Below, piece after piece: positions 50,131 through 55,053 of a DNA stretch of 64,000 nt. The DNA lies in contig CAMNOK010000002.1 in assembly GCA_946546825.1 (NCBI GenBank), positions 37,668 through 101,667 on the forward strand. The letters run 5' to 3'. The position numbers were made by a program, and so were the translations under genes. The stretch comes from an uncultured bacterium. Lineage in GTDB: Bacteria > Bacteroidota > Bacteroidia > Bacteroidales > Bacteroidaceae. The notes under the pieces were generated by a model. The model saw only the letters and a program-made list of their open reading frames with translations. It was not told the origin of the DNA and made no database searches. Numbering within the stretch: the stretch's first letter is position 1; every line of letters begins with the position of its first letter.

Positions 50131-51228
50131 TTATACAAGTTCGACCCCGAACTTATATACTGTCTTCTGTTTGTATTCCTCGCCGGGACGCAGCACGACA
50201 CTGGGGAAGTAGGGATGGTTGGGTGAGTCGGGGAAGTGCTGGCACTCGAAGCAGATGCCCGAGCGGCGGGGGAAGGTGGCACCGTGTTGTCCGGCATAGC
50301 CGTCGGCCCAGTTGTCGGAGTAGAGCTGTACGCCCGGCTCGGTGGTATAGACCTCCATGGTGCGTCCGCTGACGGGTTCGCAGATGCGGGCGGCAAAGCT
50401 GAGCTCGCCTTCTTCCTTTTTGTTCAACACATAGCAGTGGTCATAGCCGGCACCGTTTTTGATCTGCTCGTCATTGGGGTCGTCGATGTCTTGTCCCACG
50501 GGTTTGGGCTTGCGGAAGTCGAAGGGAGTTCCCTCTACGAAGCGTATCTCGCCGGTTGGGATGCTGGTTTCGTCGATGGGCAGGTAGTAGTCGGCATTGA
50601 TCTCACACACCTGGTTCAGGATGTCGGGTGTGGGGTTAGCGATGCCCTGCAGGGAGAAGAATCCGTGGCTTGTGAGGTTGAGAATGGTTTTCTTGTTGGT
50701 GGTGGCCATGTATTCAATGACCAGCTCGTTTTCGTCGGTAAAGGTATAGACAACCGTTACTCTAACCTCGCCGGTGTAACCTTCTTCGCCATAGGGACTT
50801 ACATATTTGAGCACCACCGAACGGTCGTTCATCTGGAGTGCTTCCCACACTTTGGCGTTCCATCCTCTTTTGCCGCCGTGCAGAGAGTTGGGTCCGTTGT
50901 TGATGGCCAGTTCATACTGCTTGCCGTTGAGTTGGAACTTGCCGCGGCAGATGCGGTTGCCATAGCGTCCGATGAGGGTTGACAGGTAGGGTTCCGGACT
51001 GTTGATGACGTCCTGAATGTTGTCGTGTCCCTGTATGACGTTGGCATGTTTGCCGTTTTTGTCGGGCACCATGATGGCTACGATGGCACCGCCGTAGTTG
51101 GTGATGGCCACTTCGTTGCCCTGATTGTTCTTAAGGATGTAGAGGTCGGTCTGTTTGCCGTTGACAGTGGTCTGGAAGTCTTTTCTTTTCAGGCCACAGA
51201 TGTTCACTGTTTCAGTTGTGTTTGACAT
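50131..51228 (-). CDS. galM: Aldose 1-epimerase, cytoplasmic paralog
   Basis: NYGGAIVAIMVPDKNGK; ICFECQHFPDSPNHPYFPS; no signal peptide. Confidence 0.93.
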   Translation of the reverse strand: MSNTTETVNICGLKRKDFQTTVNGKQTDLYILKNNQGNEVAITNYGGAIVAIMVPDKNGKHANVIQGHDNIQDVINSPEPYLSTLIGRYGNRICRGKFQLNGKQYELAINNGPNSLHGGKRGWNAKVWEALQMNDRSVVLKYVSPYGEEGYTGEVRVTVVYTFTDENELVIEYMATTNKKTILNLTSHGFFSLQGIANPTPDILNQVCEINADYYLPIDETSIPTGEIRFVEGTPFDFRKPKPVGQDIDDPNDEQIKNGAGYDHCYVLNKKEEGELSFAARICEPVSGRTMEVYTTEPGVQLYSDNWADGYAGQHGATFPRRSGICFECQHFPDSPNHPYFPSVVLRPGEEYKQKTVYKFGVELV

Positions 51229-51361: not shown

Positions 51362-51817
51362 CTATCTTTCCGAGCTCCTGACAGTGATATACACGGCCTC
51401 TCCCTGTTCCTTGGCCTTCACGATGAGCTCCTTGATGTTTCGGAGCCAGATGCGTGAGTTCAGCACCATGCCCTTTCTTTTGTTTTCTCCGGGTAGCAGA
51501 CAGCCTTTGGTTTCAAAGGGGTAGTTTCCTGCGTGAATCCTAATTCCTTGAAACAGAGGCACTCCTATGAGTTGCGGCAACCATTGGTTGAATTTCTTGG
51601 AGTAGTTGATGACTACGGGGTAGCGTCCTTCTGGTATGGCGAAAGGTTTCAGCTGTTGTGCCCTGTCGGGTGTGAGTTTGAGAGGGTCTTTGACGGTGGC
51701 GAGTTTCATGTGCAGGCATGGTGGTTCGAGAATGTCGCACAGGTAGCGGTTTCCCACATAGAGTTGTCCGATGGTGTAGGCCTTCTTGATGGCCTTGCGA
51801 TTGAGAATGAATTCCAT
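51362..51817 (-). CDS. DUF5675-like protein
   Basis: IPEGRYPVVINYSKKF, GIRIHAGNYPFETKGCLLPGENK. Confidence 0.85.
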   Translation of the reverse strand: MEFILNRKAIKKAYTIGQLYVGNRYLCDILEPPCLHMKLATVKDPLKLTPDRAQQLKPFAIPEGRYPVVINYSKKFNQWLPQLIGVPLFQGIRIHAGNYPFETKGCLLPGENKRKGMVLNSRIWLRNIKELIVKAKEQGEAVYITVRSSER

Positions 51818-51829
51818 GTCAAGTGAAAA

Positions 51830-51957
51830 GTTTAAAAGTTTAAAAGTTTAAAAGTTTAAAAGTTTAAGAGTTTAAGAGTTTAAGAGTTTAAGAGTTTAAG
51901 AGTTTAAGAGTTTAAAAGTTTAAGAGTTTAAGAGTTTAAGAGTTTAAAAGTTTAAAA
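51830..51957. repeat. 16 tandem copies of 8-bp GTTTAARA
   Basis: Uninterrupted 8-bp periodicity; R=A in copies 1-4, 11, 15, 16 and R=G otherwise. Confidence 0.97.
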
Positions 51958-51960
51958 GGG

Positions 51961-52743
51961 TCATCGTTGTCGGTAGTTGTTTTCAAGTACCTTGACGAAG
52001 TTGTCGGGCTGCAGGAGCCAGTCGAAGGTGCAGACGAAGTTGTGCTTGTTGCGTCCGTTGAGAAACGGGGAGAGTGCAGCATTGCGCATGGCCCTTACAA
52101 TCTGCTCGTCGGTGAACTGTCGGGCCAGGTTCCGGATGAGTTGCCGTCGGCGGTCGGTGAGATACTCGGTGGTGGGAATCCGGGTGTTTCTGGCACATCG
52201 GTTGAAGTAGCTGAGGAAGTTGGATAGCTGTTCTTCGGAAAGATTTCTCGTGTTTTCGGCTTCTTTTTCCATCGAATCAGCCTTCACCGTCTTTTCTGCA
52301 TCTACCTCCTGGTCATGATCGTTTTCGTTGACGTTTTCGTTGACGTTATCGTTATCGTTGACGTTGTCGTTATCGTTTTCGTTGACGTTATCGTTTTCGT
52401 TATCGTTATCGTTATCGTTTTCGTTATCGTTATCATGTGCGGACTTTTCGGACGCGGCGGACGTTTCTTCCTTTTTCTTCTTTCTGTATTCCTGCTTTCT
52501 GATTCGGTCGGCTTCGAGTCTCATCTCGTAGATTTCCTTGTCTTTTCTGATTTGCAGTTGCAGGAATCCGTATGCGATTTTGAGTTGCGGGTCAAGGTCG
52601 GGTGGTGTTGTCTCCTGTCCGTTGAGTGAACGGAAGAGGGCGTGGAAGAGCTTCCCCATTTGTTCTTCGGAGAGATCTCTGATGGCTTCATACTGGCTTG
52701 CGTAGAGTAGGAAGGAGTCTTTCTTTCTTGATTTCTGTTCCAT
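51961..52743 (-). CDS. DUF6291 N-terminal / phage replisome-organizer-like C-terminal protein
   Basis: KDSFLLYASQYEAIRDLSEEQMGKLFHALFRSLNG; C-terminal FVCTFDWLLQPDNFVKVLENNY typical of phage replication proteins. Confidence 0.8.
   Translation of the reverse strand: MEQKSRKKDSFLLYASQYEAIRDLSEEQMGKLFHALFRSLNGQETTPPDLDPQLKIAYGFLQLQIRKDKEIYEMRLEADRIRKQEYRKKKKEETSAASEKSAHDNDNENDNDNDNENDNVNENDNDNVNDNDNVNENVNENDHDQEVDAEKTVKADSMEKEAENTRNLSEEQLSNFLSYFNRCARNTRIPTTEYLTDRRRQLIRNLARQFTDEQIVRAMRNAALSPFLNGRNKHNFVCTFDWLLQPDNFVKVLENNYRQR
52321..52434. repeat. 19 consecutive coding hexamers (GTTWTC/GTTGAC/GTTGTC on plus strand)
   Basis: Encodes an (E/D/V)-N dipeptide tract; in frame throughout. Confidence 0.97.
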
Positions 52744-52800
52744 TGTGTTTCAGTTTGAGGGTTTAATAAATTTTTACGGCTGCAAATGTAAATACAAAAC

Positions 52801-52834
52801 ACGTCAGCACAAGATAATGACCTTGTGCTGACGT
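52801..52834. promoter_or_regulatory. Perfect 13-bp inverted repeat (operator and/or terminator)
   Basis: ACGTCAGCACAAG-ATAATGAC-CTTGTGCTGACGT. Confidence 0.85.
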
Positions 52835-52840
52835 CCCAGA

Positions 52841-52893
52841 AAGTATATTATCGGCTAAAAAAGTATGTTATCCCGAAAAAACAGTATGTTATC
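52841..52893. repeat. Iteron triplet, left
   Basis: AAGTATATTATC 52841, AAGTATGTTATC 52861, CAGTATGTTATC 52882; 20 and 21 bp spacing. Confidence 0.9.
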
Positions 52894-52901
52894 TTGTAGG
52901 A

Positions 52902-53468
52902 CTATTCCTGCTGGCTGATGGGTGGAAATCCTTCCTTGGTGAGCATCTTGACGAGTTGGGAGGCAATCGTCATGTTTCTTCTGAAGTTACGGTCGTCGTG
53001 TGGTGGAGAAAAGGTCTTCCACTCGTTGAAGCTTTTGCCAATCATATTGTTGGTCAGGGCCTTTTGGATGGTCTGGTAATTGCATTTCCACACTTTTGAT
53101 TCCGGCATGTTGAGTGAGTTGACCCAACTGACGAAGTCGTTGATCTTTTTGGATTTTCCGTAGCAGTCCACCATCACCCTGTAGATGGCGGCCCACTGGG
53201 TTTGCACGGCAAAGAGTTTGGTCAGTTGGCCGATGACCCTTGCTGCGACCTCGTCGGGCGGGTAGGGGGCTCTCGGTTCTTCATTTTCCGTCTGCGGTTC
53301 TTCATTTTCCGTCTGCGGTCCTTCTGTCTCCGCCTGCGTCTGTGGCAGGCCGTCATAGGGTGTCTGTTCCATACTGACGTTGGCCTTGTCGATGTTGAAG
53401 GTGACAAGTTGGTTGCCGGTGACGTTGATATAGTTTCCTTTGATATAGTATTTGTTGTTGGTGCTCAT
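52902..53468 (-). CDS. Hypothetical protein with N-terminal GNYINVTGNQ motif and acidic TENEEPQ repeats
   Basis: Clean 188-aa ORF in a conserved-looking operon. Confidence 0.75.
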   Translation of the reverse strand: MSTNNKYYIKGNYINVTGNQLVTFNIDKANVSMEQTPYDGLPQTQAETEGPQTENEEPQTENEEPRAPYPPDEVAARVIGQLTKLFAVQTQWAAIYRVMVDCYGKSKKINDFVSWVNSLNMPESKVWKCNYQTIQKALTNNMIGKSFNEWKTFSPPHDDRNFRRNMTIASQLVKMLTKEGFPPISQQE

Positions 53469-53552
53469 AGTGCTATATATATAAATAGGTGTATTGAATC
53501 TATGTTTAGAAAATGTTTAGAAAATAAGATGACAGCATAGGAATGATTGGGA

Positions 53553-53924
53553 TTAGTGATGATGTGGTCCGTTGTCATTGAAGTTGAAGGCTTGGTTTCC
53601 GCTGGCGTTGATCATGTTGCCCGAAACTTGCACGACGGTTTTCATCTGTTCCTCCATGAGCTCTGCCTTGTAGGTGCTTTGCAATTCATGCAGCATGTGG
53701 GGCAGGGCGCGCAGTGCCTCCTCGGTCATCAAGGGTATGTCGTCAATGAAGCCCTCAATTCTCATCCTTTTGTGTTCCGGAGAGTGGCGCATGGCATCAT
53801 TGAAGAGCACCTTGAGCTCCTGAAGGCCCAGAGTGTGGGTCTTTTCGCTGGGGGGACGGGCATTGTCGGCTGTCGTTTCCCCTTCCTGCTGAACATTATC
53901 TGTGAGTCTGTTCGGAGGCTTCAT
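53553..53924 (-). CDS. Hypothetical protein with C-terminal GNMINASGNQ motif
   Basis: 123-aa ORF with Bacteroidetes promoter upstream (TACTTTTG, minus strand 53982-53989; TTTG 54010-54013). Confidence 0.75.
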   Translation of the reverse strand: MKPPNRLTDNVQQEGETTADNARPPSEKTHTLGLQELKVLFNDAMRHSPEHKRMRIEGFIDDIPLMTEEALRALPHMLHELQSTYKAELMEEQMKTVVQVSGNMINASGNQAFNFNDNGPHHH

Positions 53925-53981
53925 AGTGGGGTGCTTTATTAAGCTATAAGGTTGAAAAAACTCTCTTTACCTATGTTTTTG

Positions 53982-54013
53982 CAAAAGTACGTTTTTTCTC
54001 CCATATCACCAAA
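53982..54013 (-). promoter_or_regulatory. Promoter of the 53924-52902 operon
   Basis: TTTG-N20-TACTTTTG on minus strand. Confidence 0.65.
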
Positions 54014-54024
54014 TAAATTTTGGA

Positions 54025-54077
54025 GATAATATACATTTTTTTTGAGATAACATACTAATTCCTGAGATAACATACTT
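54025..54077. repeat. Iteron triplet, right (opposite orientation to left)
   Basis: GATAATATACAT 54025, GATAACATACTA 54046, GATAACATACTT 54066; 21 and 20 bp spacing. Confidence 0.9.
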
Positions 54078-54127
54078 TTCTGCCTGTTGGCCCTATTCCA
54101 TTATCTTGCAGGTCGGAATACTATGCT

Positions 54128-54135
54128 TATCTTTG
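54128..54135 (+). promoter_or_regulatory. -7 element TATCTTTG of the HU-like gene
   Basis: TTG at 54106-54108, 19-bp spacer. Confidence 0.65.
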
Positions 54136-54140
54136 CAACG

Positions 54141-54193
54141 TCATCCGGATGATGCCGTCCAGGGGAGACACCCGGGACCTTCCCGCCGACGGC
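54141..54193 (+). promoter_or_regulatory. 12-bp palindrome plus structured 5' leader
   Basis: TCATCCGGATGA 54141-54152; GCCGTC 54154-54159 pairs with GACGGC 54188-54193 with inner GGGA/TCCC. Confidence 0.65.
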
Positions 54194-54241
54194 TTAGAGA
54201 ACCATCAACTTTTATCAAAAACCTTTTAAACATTATTTATT

Positions 54242-54700
54242 ATGAGCGTAAAATATAAGCTTTATCAAGACAACCGAGAGAAGAGTGCATACAAAGGAAA
54301 GTGGTATGCCCGTGCCGTACACAGTGGCGTTTTTGATCTCGACGGCATTGCCATGGAGATCGAGGAAAACGTCAGCGCCAAGGAGAGTGATGTCTATGCC
54401 GTGCTGAAAGAACTGGTGCGTGTCATGAAGCGCCATCTCCAGAATAGCGAGATTGTCGTCATGCCTGGCCTGGGCCGTTTCAAGATTGGCATCTCCACGT
54501 CGCCGGCCCTCACGGCCAAGGCTTTCAACAGCAGCCACAACATCCGTTCCTCTCACATCATCTTCCAGCCTCAGGTGAAGATCGACGTTGCCCATGGCAC
54601 CCGCTTCCGTGCACTGCTTGACGGCTGCACCTTCGAGGAGACCGTGTTTAACGATGTGAAGAAGGATCCCGACGACAGCTCCGACGACCCCCAGCCGTAG
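54242..54700 (+). CDS. HU-family DNA-binding protein (Bacteroidetes HU-like with extended C-terminus)
   Basis: VKYKLYQDNREKSAYKGKWYARAV; VVMPGLGRFKIGISTSPA. Confidence 0.92.
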   Translation: MSVKYKLYQDNREKSAYKGKWYARAVHSGVFDLDGIAMEIEENVSAKESDVYAVLKELVRVMKRHLQNSEIVVMPGLGRFKIGISTSPALTAKAFNSSHNIRSSHIIFQPQVKIDVAHGTRFRALLDGCTFEETVFNDVKKDPDDSSDDPQP

Positions 54701-54785
54701 CCTATAGCCTGTAGAGGTGACCACTGGTTGGTTTCCCATGGCTATACCCTTTGGGAGCCAGCCAGACACCTCTCGGCCTCCAACC

Positions 54786-54930
54786 GGTCACTGTTCGGCC
54801 CCAGAGTGGTCACCGCTTGGCCTCTGAGTGGTCACCGCTCAGGCACTGAACGACCGACCGCTTAGCCCCTGATCGGCCGACCGCTCGGACTCTGAACGGC
54901 CGACCGTTGATACCTCAAAAGATATACCCT
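54786..54930. repeat. Degenerate 22-23 bp intergenic repeat array
   Basis: GGTCAC at 54786, 54808, 54830; ACCGCT/ACCGTT at 54834, 54857, 54880, 54903. Confidence 0.8.
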
Positions 54931-54945
54931 TTAAAACCATTCATT

Positions 54946-55053
54946 ATGAACAAGGAAACCTGGAAATTCATCATTCAGACGGCCATCGCAATCCTGACGG
55001 CCATTGCCACCTCGATAGGTGTAAGCTCTTGCAACTCAGCGAACATCTTTTAG
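54946..55053 (+). CDS. 35-aa smalltalk-like small protein
   Basis: MNKETWKFIIQTAIAILTAIATSIGVSSCNSANIF*; absent from ORF track because of length; downstream of HU gene. Confidence 0.85.
   Translation: MNKETWKFIIQTAIAILTAIATSIGVSSCNSANIF

Follow-up and report, generated by a model that had tools for sequence, protein, structure and literature searches.

A six-gene block between galM and a nucleoside permease gene

We analysed a 64,000-nucleotide stretch of DNA from an uncultured bacterium of the Bacteroidaceae (GCA_946546825.1, contig CAMNOK010000002.1, positions 37,668 to 101,667; hereafter the window), in which a 3.7-kb block of six intact genes, all with unbroken reading frames, lies between galM (50131-51228, minus strand) and a nucleoside permease gene. 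We find that this block is a small, minimal copy of a chromosomal module that recurs in Prevotella-type gut and rumen bacteria. The strongest new point, and as far as sequence comparison can tell the key to the block, is a short motif shared by the products of two adjacent genes, P188 and P123.

The gene next to galM encodes a 151-aa DUF5675 protein (51362..51817, minus strand; PF18925, E=8e-30), a predicted L,D-carboxypeptidase/transpeptidase-like peptidoglycan enzyme. It matches 141 phage records, many of them crAss-like phage genes annotated as L,D-carboxypeptidase/transpeptidase, and one phage match adjoins a holin. It is preceded by the gene for a 260-aa DUF6291/DnaD-like replication protein (51961..52743, minus strand; PF19808, E=1.5e-14), the C-terminal part of which resembles the PHROG family ‘DnaD-like helicase loader’ (1.3e-20). 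P188, a protein of 188 aa (52902..53468, minus strand; family profiles A1/A2 and an AlphaFold2 (AF2) model), and its upstream partner P123, a helical protein by sequence and model with the motif at its C-terminus (53553..53924, minus strand), have no significant match in Pfam, NCBIfam, PHROG or PADLOC. On the plus strand follow a DNA-binding protein of the HU-HIG family (54242..54700; PF18291, E=1.6e-23) and the 35-aa peptide smalltalk (54946..55053; NF033879, E=1e-11; PF20096/DUF6486). Smalltalk has a basic N-terminal start, a single hydrophobic helix and a lipobox-like ..IGVSSC with the Cys near the end, a pattern repeated in most relatives. The block holds two transcription units, HU-smalltalk on the plus strand and DUF6291-DUF5675 on the minus strand. 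None of the six proteins matches PADLOC, the collection of known and candidate defence proteins, and open-reading-frame, Pfam and PHROG scans of the block found no integrase, transposase, capsid, portal, terminase or tail gene. A previous, sequence-only reading of this DNA had listed the six genes, iteron-like repeats and satellites, all of which profile matches and repeat searches recover, and had correctly noted that integrase and capsid genes are absent between galM and the permease gene.

The block belongs to a recurrent chromosomal module

P188 was the bait in these searches, which makes its own presence at each locus a given but does not account for the other genes found with it. A first search returned ten matches, mostly weak, in 80 genomes. 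With a profile of the family, 134 of 398 genomes from the genus gave matches, as did 8 of 61 sampled across the family (three genera); none of 247 other Bacteroidota genomes did. Single genomes hold up to eight matches. In a scan of named genomes (7 loci), most relatives came from rumen and gut Prevotella and Prevotellaceae, so the source bacterium is probably of Prevotella type. We collected 98 P188 loci, 77 of them with at least 4 kb of downstream sequence and 33 with 7 kb or more to either side. At 63 of the 77 loci the 3.5 kb after P188 hold, on the same strand, a primase-helicase or DnaD-like gene. At the 33 well-covered loci, HU-HIG is present in 22, HU and smalltalk in 20, and all three in 16. 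Several of the early neighbourhoods share one order: DUF5675, a DUF3987/BT4734-type primase-helicase, P188, and divergent HU and smalltalk.

These comparisons of gene order show a usual frame made up of HU-HIG with smalltalk; a partner gene, P188 and a replication gene; and often a peptidoglycan enzyme such as DUF5675. The replication gene may be a DUF3987 or VapE-like primase-helicase or a DnaD-like DUF6291 gene. Because one other locus (L091) also has a DUF6291 gene in this slot, the DUF6291/DnaD-like gene of the window seems to stand in for the primase-helicase that most modules of this kind have. The sequence-only reading would have been undone had its genes failed to co-occur elsewhere, or had the block been universally syntenic and housekeeping in nature. 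Instead, a replication-type gene, P188, HU and smalltalk recur together in many genomes and P188 is absent from many others, as expected of a real module rather than of ordinary housekeeping genes.

A second HU-smalltalk pair of the source genome lies at a contig end (L017:142-942, at the start of contig 10). Given this position, further copies of the module may be absent from the incomplete assembly.

P188 and its upstream partner carry a matched motif

In the AF2 model, P188 has an N-terminal beta-motif of three strands (residues 8-15, 20-27 and 30-37), a disordered linker (residues 40-64) and the helical domain that defines the family. Its fold has no match below E=0.97 in the PDB and none below 0.16 among viral models. 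The first two predicted strands overlap the motif that P188 shares with P123. By local alignment, P188 residues 9-25 (IKGNYINVTGNQLVTFN; 53394..53444, minus strand) match P123 residues 100-116 (VSGNMINASGNQAFNFN; 53577..53627, minus strand), which upholds the earlier description of the two as paired motif proteins. The alignment score of 52 is the best among all 246 open frames of the window, the next being 33; none of 20,000 shuffles of P123 reached it, and three shuffles of P188 did.

The same arrangement, in which the gene upstream of P188 ends with the motif that P188 starts with, is found at other loci, and the motif itself varies from locus to locus. Written as partner / P188, the window pair VSGNMINASGNQAFNFN / IKGNYINVTGNQLVTFN has as counterparts ISGDYVVNKHVDHEVANVAAGGTGI / VAGDFVMEKHVEHEVANVETGGIGI at L121, STFNNYGSYTEVHAGGVNINN / TNFNNYGTYNEVESGATQINN at L152 and YKYERGAIHLD / YKYESGAIHLD at L154. 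In a permutation test with the upstream gene picked blindly, the summed within-locus score was 1286, against a best of 960 in 20,000 permutations, and the mean pairing score was 39, against 20-21 in controls. The adjacent upstream gene is the best C-terminal match of the entire locus in 24 of 76 short-form loci, and at L022 the match falls on a HIRAN-like protein encoded 2.1 kb away, on the other side of RloAB. Taken together, the alignments indicate that pairing is common, not universal. P123 and several other partners have no Pfam match.

At residues identical between the two motifs of a pair, the same codon is used in 49% of cases, against 39% expected if codons were independent. Compared between loci, the motifs on the P188 side reach 85% and 69% identity in two classes, against 55% to their own partners. 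Because they match each other better than their own partner, each side of the pair keeps residues specific to its role. These measures show the motif to be conserved at the protein level, as selection rather than copying would have it. Recent gene conversion, considered as a cause of the match, was not supported by the codon use or the role-specific residues. On the tree of P188 domains, strongly supported branches force at least three changes of class among five IHDN rows, at least seven among ten GQxN rows, at least three among five GDY rows and at least four among four INFHxP rows, showing by sequence phylogeny that motif classes shift between P188 lineages. Because the classes change repeatedly on the tree, motif and partner appear to travel as one cassette. 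In composition, N, G, V and H are enriched in the motifs, and K, R, P and L are scarce.

In one branch of the family an S24 peptidase is fused to the P188 domain (E=4e-16). These fusions form essentially one clade on the tree of 98 domains and are found at L027:250-1125, L028, L029, L082, L085, L087, L089, L092, L093, L096 and L098. The S24 peptidase is a LexA/CI-type domain. Many of the fusion loci have an upstream gene of ~300 aa that resembles, by eye only, a WYL-type regulator. Separately, an IHDN-class N-terminal motif is also seen on proteins with an apparently non-P188 C-terminal domain, encoded before a primase-helicase and matching the upstream gene (L193:10001-10432, L194:2708-3142, L195:1013-1429, L196:1134-1547 and L033:11429-11845).

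Two candidate site triplets precede the two operons

The iteron-like repeats are six GATAACATAC-type sites, arranged as two phased, mutually inverted triplets. One lies upstream of the DUF6291 gene (52842..52893, minus strand; spacing 20 + 21), the other between the divergent P123 and HU genes (54025..54076, plus strand; spacing 21 + 20). Both face alike relative to the genes that they precede, DUF6291-DUF5675 and HU-smalltalk, respectively. An 11-mer search allowing one mismatch gave these six sites where 0.69 were expected in the window, and the rest of the genome has no such sites in pairs. Phased repeats were not supported as a trait of the module in general; they also occur in 4 of 124 control regions. 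Downstream of the 52842-52893 triplet, between the P188 and DUF6291 genes, is a perfect 13-bp hairpin (52801..52834, minus strand; found as an inverted repeat) with a T-rich tail read from the sequence. Terminator- or attenuator-like in form, it could end the P188 transcript or attenuate DUF6291.

Chromosomal setting and mobility

The sequence-only reading took the block to be inserted between galM and the permease gene. We reject such a simple insertion, and with it the idea of an interrupted ancestral pair, as the two genes are not neighbours in relatives: there, galM usually follows a gene read by eye as folC, and the permease gene often follows genes read by eye as lspA and a DUF4296-type lipoprotein. 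Because both genes have other neighbours in relatives, the galM-block-permease junction is, on gene order, peculiar to the source lineage. Another genome (G003) has an HU-like gene 316 bp upstream of its galM, on the side where the block lies in the window (L231:700-1185).

Elsewhere, one genome (G192) carries the module upstream of infC, and a genome without it (G109) shows 92-94% DNA identity to the right. This was considered as a clean empty site and rejected: the right edge matches ~90 bp before infC, but the left side is rearranged. We saw no clean insertion or attachment repeats; the copies lie at rearrangement junctions, and they may serve as points of recombination between chromosomal sites.

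Searches of 50,697 phage and 72,556 plasmid records gave no match to P188, and HU matches one phage record. Clear phage relatives were found only for DUF5675 and for the DnaD-like protein in its C-terminal part, and plasmid relatives amount to two weak partial matches. No viral contig holds both P188 and DUF6291. A 43.7-kb viral contig (G454; loci L197, L201 and L202) consists of a Mu-like prophage beside a P188-primase-DUF5675 module, which does not look like part of the Mu-like phage. The earlier idea of a domesticated phage or plasmid replicon is supported only in part; for the block as a whole such an origin is not supported, P188 being absent from these records.

Other copies of the module carry defence genes

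In frames of the divergent kind, cargo occupies the interval that separates HU from the P188 operon. Many copies have such exchangeable cargo, for the most part restriction-modification and abortive-infection genes. It includes C5 and N6/N4 methylases, HaeIII, DpnII and XamI endonucleases, subunits of type I and type III restriction systems, RloB with an AAA ATPase, a YhcG-type nuclease and MutH. The 64 cargo proteins match 394 PADLOC models, many of them redundant, against 22 for 64 flanking proteins. The restriction-modification and abortive-infection cargo of these copies supports the link to defence or conflict proposed earlier. Of the hypothesis about the module as a whole, what stands is a real, mobile-looking, defence-associated chromosomal module; that it is a plasmid, a phage or a satellite is not shown.

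Among the 64 flanking controls are proteins matching Zorya type II models, whose sizes probably place them a little beyond the HU-smalltalk end of L152 (L152:60-4333). At L045:1533-18942, a set of HU, smalltalk and amidase genes lies amid genes that read as surface-glycan biosynthesis, a setting that suggests cargo beyond restriction systems.

Comparison with known systems

In bacterial amyloid-signalling (BASS) pairs, as described by Dyrka et al. 2020 in the account given by two later papers (PMC7889193, PMC8086366), BELL effectors are paired with NLRs. These pairs are the nearest known parallel to P123-P188, with which they share adjacent genes, a motif that is C-terminal in the product of the upstream gene and N-terminal in that of the downstream gene, beta-prone motifs of ~16-35 residues, and many unrelated motif families on homologous domains. 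On the same account the block differs in that it has no NLR and its downstream domain is the P188 helical domain. The NACHT or NB-ARC domain with repeats that marks an NLR is absent from P188, which at 188 aa has no such Pfam match, and its relatives have the S24 fusion or none. The BASS hosts described in PMC7889193 are mainly actinobacteria and cyanobacteria, whereas the block’s host is probably Prevotella-type. By analogy, P123-P188 may function in the manner of a BASS pair, yet we would not class it as one.

Like phage satellites (PICMI, PMC10803314; PICI; P4), the module is a compact chromosomal element with a replication gene, defence cargo and no capsid genes; unlike them, it lacks an integrase, attachment sites, a packaging gene and a known helper, and lies at rearrangement junctions. 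Of the features of iteron plasmids, the block has phased direct repeats near a replication gene, in its two triplets, and lacks a plasmid-type Rep initiator. Bacteroidales sets of HU, smalltalk and N-acetylmuramoyl-L-alanine amidase (NF033879) share the HU and smalltalk families of the block, and genes that are amidase-like by sequence lie beside smalltalk at L043, L045 and L048. In the block, however, the enzyme is a DUF5675 protein whose gene lies at the opposite end, beyond P123-P188 and DUF6291. The papers searched describe no function for the known sets. Phage DnaD-like helicase loaders match the C-terminal part of the DUF6291 protein at 31-43% identity, but the block protein is chromosomal and has an Asp/Asn-rich repeat linker and a DUF6291 N-terminus.

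A proposed motif-coupled switch and its rivals

We give about even odds to our preferred reading, in which the block is a satellite-like module of the chromosome, controlled by two proteins that form a motif-coupled switch. The frame and the pairing were found by sequence comparison; amyloid behaviour and a phage-responsive function we infer. In such a switch, the matched motifs would nucleate co-assembly of the partner and P188 by beta-arch templating, as in BASS pairs. The pair would act as sensor and transducer, turning on the HU-smalltalk and DUF6291-DUF5675 units, in the window copy by way of the two candidate site triplets, and co-assembly would alter how strongly the replication gene, the peptidoglycan enzyme and smalltalk are expressed, or how active they are. 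Because other members have an S24 domain or HIRAN-like partners (below cut-off), foreign replication or DNA damage would be a likely trigger. The output would be local replication together with action of the peptidoglycan enzyme and smalltalk on the envelope, and the outcome either satellite-style maintenance or altruistic, protective lysis. A more specific proposal, which we put forward only tentatively, is that these are NLR-independent amyloid-type signalling pairs of Prevotella-type, not filamentous, bacteria, with at least ten motif classes, that control a phage-protective, cargo-bearing replication and lysis module. P188 would then be a new transducer domain, its motif and partner exchanged together as one cassette.

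Several observations weigh against a motif-coupled switch in a defence-bearing module. About two-thirds of the short-form loci have no detectable pair, with none, for example, in the KGDxEE class. The AF2 model of P188 is of moderate confidence only, the P123 motif is not predicted as a strand in its model, and the partners’ matches to HIRAN and HARE-HTH do not reach the Pfam cut-offs. P123 has no relative in 80 genomes of the genus, and the window’s P188 sits on a long branch of the tree. Candidate-site triplets are not general among related modules, and DUF5675 lies within 5.5 kb of P188 in only 18 of the 77 loci. Finally, the window copy has no defence cargo, and the cargo list from other copies was partly hand-picked.

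P188 and its partner might instead be plain transcriptional regulators, a repressor pair in which the motif is a dimerisation strand that does no amyloid-type templating. The S24 fusion in one clade, the HARE-HTH-like hints in partners and the placing of the two triplets before two operons all fit such a pair. The many exchangeable motif classes and their Asn/Gly-rich composition are unexplained by it alone, though they do not contradict it, and we regard it as possible but doubtful. Rather unlikely, in our estimate, is a phage satellite or domesticated replicon without an integrase that undergoes excision or amplification upon infection by a helper phage, its peptidoglycan enzyme and smalltalk aiding release. 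Such an element would be expected to have what many copies have, a primase-helicase, VapE-like or DnaD-like gene with a lysis-type enzyme and defence cargo typical of satellites, and it would account for as many as eight P188 matches in a single genome and for presence that varies between near relatives (G192 with, G109 without). It sits poorly with the lack of any integrase, excisionase, packaging or capsid-remodelling gene, with the rearrangement junctions where clean insertion or attachment repeats should be, and with the absence of P188 from phage and plasmid records, its lone relative on a viral contig merely lying beside a Mu-like prophage.

Two alternatives remain. That the motifs are a local tandem duplication across the gene junction, kept by gene conversion and with no function of their own, is very improbable: two copies side by side in the DNA would have a simple origin in a short tandem duplication, but codon agreement (49% against 39%), role-specific residues conserved between loci and the L022 partner 2.1 kb away beyond RloAB all speak against it. 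Less credible still is decayed prophage or plasmid debris in which small genes co-occur by chance. The small genes, the satellites and the want of cargo in the window copy are what debris would offer; the intact frames of the window, a gene order conserved across the genus and a motif under protein-level selection already largely refute it.

A motif-coupled switch would bear on the question, raised in a 2021 review, of whether bacterial signalling amyloids exist outside NLR pathways (PMC7889193), for which the module offers about two dozen naturally occurring pairs with matching sequences, all from gut and rumen bacteria that have been sequenced. The module is also a carrier of defence genes that can be recognised by P188, the replication gene, HU and smalltalk, and it gives a possible setting for smalltalk, a widespread and unexplained peptide.

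Satellites and tandem arrays

The remaining repeats of the block were found with the program TRF. A (AGTTTAAG)x16 satellite lies just upstream of the DUF5675 start codon (51829..51955; period 8, 96% matches). Two arrays are coding: a 6/18-bp array whose translation is the Asp/Asn/Glu-rich linker of the DUF6291 protein (52318..52434, minus strand), and three copies of a 21-bp unit inside the span of the P188 gene (53274-53338). Tandem arrays of 22/23 bp separate HU and smalltalk (54767..54906). Related modules have tandem arrays upstream of primase or HU genes, with units of 7 bp at L143:5739-5818 and L151:3068-3154 and of 10 bp at L036:11991-12060. These short arrays are possible length-variable switches like the 8-bp array at 51829-51955.

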